This document shows positions 24,923-28,001 of a stretch of 58,889 nt of DNA, one piece after another. Source of the DNA: an uncultured Erysipelotrichaceae bacterium (GTDB lineage: Bacteria; Bacillota_I; Bacilli_A; Erysipelotrichales; Erysipelotrichaceae). Every line of letters begins with the position of its first letter. Within the stretch, counting starts at the first letter, position 1. The stretch lies in NCBI GenBank assembly GCA_900315225.1, contig OMYM01000134.1, positions 1-58,889 of the forward strand. The letters are read 5' to 3'. The translations under genes and the position numbers were made by a program. The notes below the pieces were generated by a model. It was given only the letters and a program-made list of their open reading frames with translations. It did not search any database and was not told the DNA's origin.

Positions 24923-25261
24923 ATGGCATCACAACTGAATCTTAGCCCACAATCCATCGTGGACAAGGAGTTTGACATTGACTTCAAAGGGTACAATCCA
25001 GCGCAAGTAGACCAGATTCTCGACCTGGTCATTGCCGATTACCAAGCGTATGAGGAGATGCTTGGCGATCTGCGTGAAAAAGTCAGCGACCTGGAACGCG
25101 CAAACGCATCCCTTAGGGCCAAGGTGATGGAATTGGAAGGCAAGGCCAAAGCCGCCGAAAGCGCCGACCCAATCTACGTTGCTTCTTCAAATGTCGATAT
25201 CTTGAAGCGCCTTAGCAGACTGGAGAAACAAGTCTTCGAGGACAGTAAAAACAAGTATTAG
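24923..25261 (+). CDS. gpsB: Cell-cycle protein GpsB
   Basis: A 112-residue DivIVA-family adaptor that brings PBP1 and other wall enzymes to the division site. The N-terminal DivIVA-like motif (SIVDKEFDIDFKGYNPAQVDQILDLVIADYQAYEEML) is followed by a coiled coil (about residues 45-85) and a small C-terminal domain (SNVDILKRLSRLEKQVF) that trimerises. The start at 24923 has AAGGAGG 5 bases upstream. It lies next to recU-ponA, the source of its known partner. RNase P RNA begins just after its stop codon. Confidence 0.92.
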   Translation: MASQLNLSPQSIVDKEFDIDFKGYNPAQVDQILDLVIADYQAYEEMLGDLREKVSDLERANASLRAKVMELEGKAKAAESADPIYVASSNVDILKRLSRLEKQVFEDSKNKY

Positions 25262-25263
25262 CG

Positions 25264-25636
25264 AGATATGCGCATACGATACGGCCGCTGGTCTATTCAG
25301 CCAGAGGAAAGTCCATGCTCGCACTGCCTGCGATGGCAGTAGTGTTTGTGCTGATCCAATCAATAAGGTCAGGCATGCCCAATGGGCATGACGGCGGAGC
25401 CGAAACCTAAAGGCGAAAGTCCATGGTCAAGGTCCCTAAGGTGTCACAGTGACGCAGCCGGCAGGGAAACCCGTCGGGTGGAACGAGATAAACCCCTCAA
25501 GCGAGAAACCCAAATTTGGTAGGGGAACCAGCGAAAGCGAAGCGAAGCTTTCAACGGGCGCCTTTCAAAGGCGCAGATAAATGGCCGTAGCGCAGCAATG
25601 CGTAACAGAACATGGCTTATGACTATGCGCATATCT
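25264..25636 (+). ncRNA. rnpB: RNase P RNA (bacterial, B-type)
   Basis: The catalytic RNA of RNase P, which trims tRNA 5' ends; about 373 nt. The 13-nt P1 helix is perfect: AGATATGCGCATA at 25264-25276 pairs with TATGCGCATATCT at 25624-25636. Universally conserved segments are present: GAGGAAAGTCCATGCTC near 25304, CGAGAAACCCAAATTTGGTAGGGGAACC near 25500, and the 3' partner AACAGAACATGGCTTATGA near 25605. A position after gpsB is common in Firmicutes. End positions are set by P1 and may be off by a few bases. Confidence 0.95.
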
Positions 25637-25639
25637 TGG

Positions 25640-25668
25640 GAGAGGAGACACAATCTCCTCTCTTTATT
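25640..25668 (+). terminator. Terminator of rnpB
   Basis: GAGAGGAGA (25640-25648) pairs with TCTCCTCTC (25654-25662), then TTTATTTT. Confidence 0.85.
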
Positions 25669-25707: not shown

Positions 25708-25716
25708 TGATATACT
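25708..25716 (+). promoter_or_regulatory. Extended -10 promoter of the pgsA-like gene
   Basis: TGATATACT, with TATACT at 25711-25716; no clear -35. AAGGAGAGAG precedes the ATG at 25742. Confidence 0.5.
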
Positions 25717-25741
25717 TTAACGGCTGATGAAAGGAGAGAGT

Positions 25742-26335
25742 ATGAATCTTCCCAACAGATTGACGATATTCCGCATTGTATTGGTTCCGTTGATCATCTT
25801 GATCTATACGTTTCCGTATCCTTCGCTTGGCGTAGAGCCACAGTCATACAGGATTGGGACGGTGAACCTGTCGTCCATCAATATCGTGGTCCTTGCCCTC
25901 TATGCCCTGGCATCTTTGACCGGCATATTGAACGAATATATAGTGCGGAAACGGAATATGATCACTACTTTCGGCAAATTTGCCAAGCCAATCGCAGAAA
26001 AGCTTTTGACAATGTCGTTGTTTCTTCTTTTTGCGGCGAAAGGGATCGTCCCCATTGTCCCAGTCATTCTCATGATGGCTTCCGACATTGTCGTGGATGG
26101 TTGCACCCTTGCGGCTGCCGTCAATGGAAAGGCTCTTTTCCCTGGCTTCACCGGCAGATTGAGAAAGGTAATTCAGGCGCAGACGATCCTACTGGTTCTC
26201 GTGTGCAACCTTCCTTTCGAACTCTGGGGGTTGCCAGTGGCTGAAATATCGCTTTGGCTTGGGGCATTTGTCTCCATGTCCAGTTGCTTGCAGTATTACT
26301 CGCAAGCAAAAGAAGACATTACGGAAAGCAAATAA
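25742..26335 (+). CDS. PgsA-like membrane protein with a lost CDP-alcohol phosphotransferase motif
   Basis: A 197-residue polytopic membrane protein of the CDP-alcohol phosphatidyltransferase family, at the usual pgsA position before recA. The N-terminus (MNLPNRLTIFRIVLVP) is a textbook PgsA start. The catalytic motif D-x2-D-G-x2-A-R-x8-G-x3-D-x3-D here reads Gly61, Asn64, Glu65, Val68, Arg69, Gly78, Lys82, Glu86: spacing, Arg and last Gly are kept, but none of the four metal-binding aspartates. Phosphatidylglycerophosphate synthesis by this protein is therefore unlikely. Five or six hydrophobic segments remain. It may be a pseudoenzyme with a membrane role; a functional pgsA would be needed elsewhere. 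Confidence 0.75.
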   Translation: MNLPNRLTIFRIVLVPLIILIYTFPYPSLGVEPQSYRIGTVNLSSINIVVLALYALASLTGILNEYIVRKRNMITTFGKFAKPIAEKLLTMSLFLLFAAKGIVPIVPVILMMASDIVVDGCTLAAAVNGKALFPGFTGRLRKVIQAQTILLVLVCNLPFELWGLPVAEISLWLGAFVSMSSCLQYYSQAKEDITESK

Positions 26336-26404: not shown

Positions 26405-27481
26405 ATGGCTAAAGAACGAAAGACTCAAACTGTCACAGACGACAAGAAGGATCAGCTTCTGAATGAAGCATTGAAGGCAATTGAAAAGGAATACGGAAAG
26501 GGCAGCATCATGCGCCTGGGGGATCGTGCCGATGTTTCGGTAGACGCAATCCCGTCTGGTTCCATTGCGCTTGACCAAGCGCTTGGCATTGGCGGCTACC
26601 CAAAGGGAAGAATCGTGGAGATTTTTGGACCGGAATCTTCCGGCAAGACCACACTTGCCTTGCATGCGATCGCCGAATGCCAAAGGCAGGGAGGGCGCTG
26701 TGCATTCATTGATGCAGAAAACGCAATCGATCCAGTCTACGCAAAGAACCTGGGCGTTGACATCGACGAATTGATTCTTTCACAACCTGATTCTGGCGAA
26801 CAGGCGCTGGAAATCACTGAGCTGTTGATCAAGAGCGGGGCTATCGACCTGGTGGTCATCGACTCTGTCGCTGCACTTGTTCCGCAGGCAGAGCTTGACG
26901 GCGAAATGTCGGATGCATCGGTTGGATTGCAGGCACGCCTGATGTCAAAGGCGATGCGCAAACTTGCAGGTGTCATGAATCGTTCCAGTACAACCGCGAT
27001 CTTCATCAACCAGCTGAGAGAAAAGGTCGGCATCATGTTCGGCAACCCTGAGACAACCCCAGGAGGAAGAGCGCTGAAGTTCTATGCGTCTGTGCGCCTT
27101 GACGTGCGCAAGGGGGAAGTCTTGAAGAGCGGAACCGATATCGTAGGAAACACTACGAAAATCAAGGTGGTAAAGAACAAGGTTGCGCCGCCTTTCAAGT
27201 CAGCGACCGTGAACATCATCTATGGCGAGGGAATCAGCCACGCAGATGAATTGATCAATCTCGCGATTGAAAACAACATCATCGACAAGGCAGGTGCGTG
27301 GTTCTCGTACAATGGCGAAAAAATCGGTCAGGGTTTCCAGTCTGTGCGCGATTACTTGAAGAACAATCCTGAATTCGATGCCCAGATTTCACGTCAGGTC
27401 AAGGAAAAGATTTTCCCCGCCGCGCAAGAAAAAGTCCAGCCAAGTGCAAGCCCGGCGCCAGAGCCGGCACCGGAGGCATAA
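26405..27481 (+). CDS. recA: Recombinase RecA
   Basis: Homologous recombination and SOS co-protease; 358 residues. Walker A reads [14 protein letters not shown], motif [14 protein letters not shown], loop L2 and the MAW-type block [17 protein letters not shown], and the P-loop-linked [15 protein letters not shown]. The C-terminus ends in a Pro/Ala/Glu tail ([13 protein letters not shown]). The start at 26405 has AGGAGG about 10 bases upstream. No intein is present. No LexA-type box could be recognised with confidence in the 69-base gap from the pgsA-like gene. Confidence 0.96.
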
Positions 27482-27520: not shown

Positions 27521-28001
27521 GAAGGACTATAAATCTTTCTACAACTCTATGCGCGCGCACTTTGGCTCTGGGAAGGCGATAGCCATACTAGACACTTGTG
27601 CAACAAGCACGGTGGCTCTTTCTTACCTGGTTTTTCTATGCACTCAGGCCGCGCAAAGACCTCGCGACCTGCCAAAAGCAATGCTTGTCCCAGCGTGCGG
27701 ACTTGTTTTTGCGACAATTCTGCGGAAGACGATCAGTCGTCCGCGTCCATACGAAACACACGATATAAAGCCCTTGATCCGAAAAGAACAACGCGGCGAA
27801 TCATGTCCTTCGCGCCATGTCTTTTCGGCTGCCATCATTGCCTTTACAGTGCTTCACTATGTTCCCAAGGCAGGATTTGCAATGCTCGTGGCATCGCTAG
27901 CGGTAGCCTTTTCCAGGGTGGCGGGAGGCGTACACTATGTTTCTGATACAATCGCTTCATTCCTGCTTGCGGGCATATGGTCGCTTCTTTTATTCCTCTG
28001 A
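27519..28001 (+). CDS. PAP2-family membrane phosphatase
   Basis: A 160-residue integral membrane phosphatase. All three PAP2 motifs are present: KTISRPRP (K-x6-RP), CPSRH (PSGH-like) and SRVAGGVHYVSD (SR-x5-H-x3-D). Members dephosphorylate undecaprenyl pyrophosphate, phosphatidic acid or phosphatidylglycerophosphate; size and lack of other domains do not decide between them. Given the PgsA-like pseudoenzyme nearby, a lipid substrate is tempting but unproven. The start is uncertain: 27519 overlaps a possible -10 box and has no ribosome binding site; an ATG at 27549 is the alternative. Confidence 0.78.
   Translation: MKDYKSFYNSMRAHFGSGKAIAILDTCATSTVALSYLVFLCTQAAQRPRDLPKAMLVPACGLVFATILRKTISRPRPYETHDIKPLIRKEQRGESCPSRHVFSAAIIAFTVLHYVPKAGFAMLVASLAVAFSRVAGGVHYVSDTIASFLLAGIWSLLLFL

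Follow-up and report, generated by a model that had tools for sequence, protein, structure and literature searches.

A PgsA homologue at the recA locus of a rumen-type Erysipelotrichaceae bacterium lacks its catalytic residues and is probably retained as a membrane pseudoenzyme

In an uncultured Erysipelotrichaceae bacterium, the pgsA gene adjoining recA encodes a homologue of phosphatidylglycerophosphate (PGP) synthase that is without the catalytic residues of its family. The gene, referred to here as pgsA1, occupies positions 25742..26335 on the plus strand of contig OMYM01000134.1, a stretch of 58,889 nucleotides that was analysed as a whole and is called the window. Its 197-amino-acid product was characterized from its translation, profile matches, an alignment of orthologues and a predicted fold. 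Phosphatidylglycerol and cardiolipin derive from the product of PgsA, a normally essential enzyme. The explanation favored here, with a probability of roughly 70%, is that the ancestral PgsA lost catalysis once a second enzyme, PgsA2, had made it redundant, and that the protein was retained as a non-catalytic membrane pseudoenzyme.

The degenerate CDP-alcohol phosphotransferase motif spans codons 61-87 (25922..26002, plus strand) and was recognized by translation and orthologue alignment. Intact PgsA proteins carry D61, D64, G65, D82 and D86 within the motif DxxDGxxAR(x8)GxxxDxxxD, whereas the pgsA1 protein reads SLTG61ILN64E65YIVR69...TTFG78KFAK82PIAE86K, with Gly61, Asn64, Glu65, Lys82 and Glu86 replacing D1, D2, G1, D3 and D4, respectively. 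D86E is the sole conservative replacement among the four aspartates. A preliminary description of this DNA had reported these five replacements along with an intact motif frame (Arg69 and Gly78), and translation bears out every residue and coordinate. Its list of losses was incomplete, however, since A68V, R114S, R122T and K141R are also changed. The protein therefore departs from the motif at position 68 (Val) as well, and Ser114 and Thr122 stand where the basic residues of the acceptor pocket are expected, a role for R114 and R122 that is transferred from relatives. Membership of the CDP-alcohol phosphatidyltransferase family by homology is supported by a full-length match to Pfam CDP-OH_P_transf (PF01066) of 63.2 bits against a cut-off of 22, while the score with the NCBIfam pgsA equivalog model (TIGR00560), 105.4 bits, falls slightly below the cut-off of 109.1.

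The four motif aspartates bind two metals that hold the phosphates of CDP-DAG, the last aspartate is the proposed catalytic base, and a cluster of arginines binds the acceptor phosphate in CDP-alcohol phosphotransferases (PMC6506517, PMC8633023). In one relative, mutating any motif residue strongly lowers or abolishes activity (PMC8633023). Judged from its sequence, the pgsA1 protein, in which Gly, Asn, Lys and Glu replace the aspartates and two arginines are missing, is very probably inactive and a poor binder of its former substrates; the loss of both the metal-binding and the acceptor-phosphate residues makes it doubtful that CDP-DAG or glycerol 3-phosphate is still bound.

Genes and signals around pgsA1 are those of a conserved locus. 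Upstream of pgsA1 are a gpsB-like cell division gene (24926..25261, plus strand, start approximate) and rnpB, which encodes the class B RNase P RNA (25273..25624, plus strand; Rfam RF00011, 262.5 bits), and downstream is recA (26405..27481, plus strand); gpsB and recA are conserved neighbours within the genus and served as references for rates. The order gpsB, rnpB region, pgsA, recA is kept throughout the genus wherever the contig extends and the gene is recognizable. The ribosome binding site AAGGAGAG lies at 25731..25738 (plus strand), which agrees with a start at 25742, and similar purine-rich sites precede several orthologues. The earlier suggestion that pgsA1 is driven by its own promoter is plausible. 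A terminator-like hairpin 3' of rnpB ends upstream of pgsA1 (25638..25664, plus strand) and is followed by an extended -10 box, TGATATACT (25708..25716, plus strand), which was assigned by consensus match only and recurs upstream of the copies in G051 and G043 and of other orthologues in a comparison of upstream regions, but a two-hexamer promoter scan returned no site in front of pgsA1. Beyond recA, positions 27522-28001 of the window hold a gene for a PAP2-type phosphatase, which lies between recA and rny, also follows recA in several relatives and could be a PGP phosphatase.

A match to the pgsA1 protein was found in 69 of 70 genomes of the genus, and the 68 copies extracted from the recA locus, including that of the window's own genome (G000), align nearly without gaps. 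Among the other 67 full-length orthologues, D61, D64 and D86 are kept in 66 and D82 in all 67; R114 is likewise present in all 67 and R122 in 66, and Lys141 is invariant or nearly so. The motif is also intact in all 45 named relatives compared, Erysipelotrichaceae of the rumen and gut that include Solobacterium sp. MAGs and Lactimicrobium massiliense. Since 66 of the 67 orthologues and the named relatives are intact, loss of the active site is specific to the window's lineage among the genomes compared, which answers the question that the preliminary description had raised about conservation of these residues. With its orthologues intact and the gene nested in their tree, pgsA1 is by this comparison the descendant of an active enzyme.

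Other irregular PgsA copies were encountered along the way. The PgsA1 of G029 (L069:1001-1591) has Cys in place of the motif Gly78 and all aspartates intact; no PgsA2 was seen in that genome, which is 69% complete. A screen of 272 genomes across the family compared the number of CDP-OH_P matches with the number of intact DNA motifs among the matches listed. Genomes with an apparent motif deficit were candidates for a dead PgsA1, and those inspected yielded none, carrying PssA-like paralogues or split contigs instead, though chance pattern hits could mask cases in this screen. Four family members that are at least 95% complete (G135, G139, G183 and G190) gave zero CDP-OH_P matches in the search and have no visible PgsA. 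A PgsA homologue with a strong match in another genome (G177:C55:20-556) contains one in-frame TAA, which may reflect a pseudogene, an assembly error or recoding.

A second dead copy occurs within the genus. The recA-locus PgsA1 of genome G028, which adjoins that genome's own recA, has S61, G64, T65, A69, D82, E86, H122 and S141. Its sister in the gene tree, G027, has an intact motif, and the two genomes are 97.3% identical in RecA and 97.3% identical in GpsB versus 65.5% in PgsA1. E86 is the only motif replacement that the G028 and window copies share. These comparisons indicate that G028 lost its active site independently of the window lineage and with different replacements, and the idea of a new active site common to both dead copies was rejected because the replacements differ.

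The preliminary description had proposed that a second, intact pgsA be sought in the genome, and one is present in the window's assembly. PgsA2, encoded on contig C362, belongs to the same Pfam family as the pgsA1 protein (158 bits to CDP-OH_P) and differs from it in having a full D..DG..AR..G...D...D motif, in being only about 30% identical to it and in being encoded with glpK and plsY. Its gene is flanked by a DUF1667 gene and plsY within a glycerol-use operon, glpK - FAD dehydrogenase - FAD oxidoreductase - DUF1667 - pgsA2 - plsY (G000:C362, L072:8586-14429), an arrangement that recurs largely in other species with PgsA2 (related loci L073-L084). As named from a reading of the sequence, glpK would encode glycerol kinase, and the two FAD-dependent oxidoreductases would be of the glycerol 3-phosphate dehydrogenase type. 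Glycerol kinase produces glycerol 3-phosphate, on which both PgsA and PlsY act, and two lipid enzymes that use this compound are found inside a glycerol catabolic operon. The same assembly encodes a PssA-like protein next to a Psd-like one on C524. The tetranucleotide correlation of C362 to the window (r 0.869) falls inside the span seen for sampled contigs of the bin (0.60-0.90), though below that of the window's own slices; as the bin is large and has an estimated contamination of 9%, C362 might belong to another organism.

Relatives of PgsA2 are distributed patchily: 14 of the 70 genomes of the genus encode one, with identities of 76-89%. Dead PgsA1 copies occur in 2 of the 13 genomes that have both PgsA2 and an extracted pgsA1 versus none of the 55 without PgsA2 (Fisher p=0.034), an association that consists of two events. 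With the dead copies excluded, the rate of PgsA1 relative to GpsB is still higher in genomes with PgsA2 (p=7e-4, kinship ignored). The remaining 11 PgsA2 species with pgsA1 have kept the four aspartates, so PgsA2 permits loss of the active site without forcing it. The PgsA1 of one PgsA2 genome, G031 (L065:656-1246), carries R69K and evolves at a raised rate, which may mark an early step towards the same loss.

In the proposed sequence of events, pgsA1 would be the genus's ancestral PGP synthase gene, residing at the conserved gpsB-rnpB-pgsA-recA locus. Presence of the intact PgsA2 of the glycerol-use operon would have rendered the ancestral activity redundant, and the catalytic site would then have been lost. 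PGP synthesis would have moved to PgsA2, with the pgsA1 protein presumably making none and persisting as a non-catalytic membrane protein with six helices.

That pgsA1 is catalytically dead yet kept under selection, as the preliminary description had suggested, is supported by the intact second pgsA, the lineage-specific change and the dN/dS estimates. Alternatively, pgsA1 could be a redundant gene that has been decaying slowly since PgsA2 replaced it, with selection relaxed and the reading frame not yet broken. In the gene tree the two dead copies do sit on longer terminal branches than any other copy (1.33 and 1.03; the median is 0.09), PgsA1 evolves faster in PgsA2 genomes, and dead copies are few and each private to one species, all of which would be expected of decay. 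Several observations nevertheless make this explanation unlikely. Both dead frames are full length and free of stops and indels, and the ribosome binding site and extended -10 element are still present at the dead pgsA1. In addition, the changes cluster in the active site. Among positions that are invariant in intact orthologues (11 in the active site and 59 others), the window copy is changed at 9 of 11 versus 6 of 59 (p=3.5e-6), leaving 53 of the other 59 fixed, and the G028 copy at 7 of 11 versus 10 of 59 (p=0.003). Drift following release from selection would change both classes of position alike, and the difference argues for retention over free drift.

Estimates of selection point in the same direction. 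Pairwise dN/dS values against G000 were saturated for dS in several comparisons, and a purpose-written branch codon model was used instead, together with the site-concentration test. Omega was 0.15 for the G000 branch, where 0.2 fits nearly as well, 0.4 is worse by 2dL 7.0 and omega=1 is worse by 18.5, and 0.11 for the G028 branch, where omega=1 is worse by 2dL=41.9. These values (about 0.11-0.15) are rough because dS approaches saturation on the two branches, and each is a branch average that includes time before the loss. The dN/dS test that had been suggested for this gene thus gives about 0.15, and neutrality is rejected on both branches. Taken with the site-concentration result, this indicates, indirectly, that purifying selection acts on the rest of the pgsA1 protein after the loss.

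It is also conceivable that the pgsA1 protein is still an enzyme, with an active site rebuilt around N64, E65, K82 and E86 and perhaps a different substrate or use of metal. Adaptive remodelling could account for the clustering of changes in the active site, the Glu at position 86 common to both altered copies could bind metal, and the predicted fold is intact. The model of the pgsA1 protein (pLDDT 86, pTM 0.79) has the expected six helices and a TM score of 0.84 to S. aureus PgsA (7DRK), although it leans towards the fold of intact relatives because the alignment was made of them. Such an enzyme seems improbable, however, as the motif replacements of the two copies differ at every other position and form no common new constellation, the other metal ligands and the motif Gly have given way to ill-suited residues including Lys, and Arg114 and Arg122 are lost. 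An artefact (an assembly error, a chimeric contig or a mis-binned PgsA2) is more doubtful still: the bin is large (5.2 Mb in 591 contigs) with an estimated contamination of 9%, but pgsA1 keeps its conserved place, with rnpB on one side and recA on the other, on a 58.9-kb contig, some of its codons need several base changes, an omega of 0.15 is unlike sequencing error, the assembly has a single recA, and a like event is seen in a different genome, G028.

The preliminary description had put forward a lipid-binding or regulatory membrane protein. If pgsA1 encodes a pseudoenzyme, its job may be structural or that of a protein partner, for example a dimer-forming scaffold or a regulator in phospholipid synthesis. 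Since the sites for the metals of CDP-DAG and for the acceptor phosphate are gone, such a role is likelier than sensing of lipid or substrate, and it is the weakest step of the proposal. The structure of M. tuberculosis PgsA1 is a homodimer (PMC6506517), which makes self-association or pairing with a membrane protein a natural candidate.

Compared with S. aureus PgsA (7DRJ/7DRK; TIGR00560), the pgsA1 protein is homologous over its full length and shares the predicted six-helix fold; it also resembles PgsA in its conserved recA-side locus and in R69 and G78 of the motif, and differs in the absence of the four motif aspartates, the motif Gly, R114 and R122 and in scoring below the equivalog cut-off. 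Pseudoenzymes such as pseudokinases and iRhoms are cases in which an enzyme fold is selected after loss of catalytic residues and gene redundancy, and the pgsA1 protein is like them in this respect. A literature search that covered few subscription journals found no pseudoenzyme of PgsA or of the CDP-alcohol phosphotransferases. Pseudoenzymes are already known as a kind, and a PgsA pseudoenzyme that arose twice in one genus beside a paralogue in a glycerol operon was not found in the literature searched. As a more tentative generalization, at least twice in this genus a PgsA freed by PgsA2 might have become either a membrane protein devoted to a non-catalytic task, such as a partner regulating phosphatidylglycerol synthesis, or an enzyme whose active site was rebuilt.

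One practical consequence is that automatic annotation of the recA-locus gene as PgsA is wrong in some species. The pgsA2 case in turn points to a PgsA and PlsY pair integrated in a glycerol-use operon. The host would be a rumen-type bacterium that keeps a PgsA protein without its chemistry, and, together with relatives that have the active form and the intact paralogue, it amounts to a natural separation-of-function experiment. A lineage with a dead PgsA can reveal if the protein serves a structural or regulatory purpose beyond lipid synthesis.
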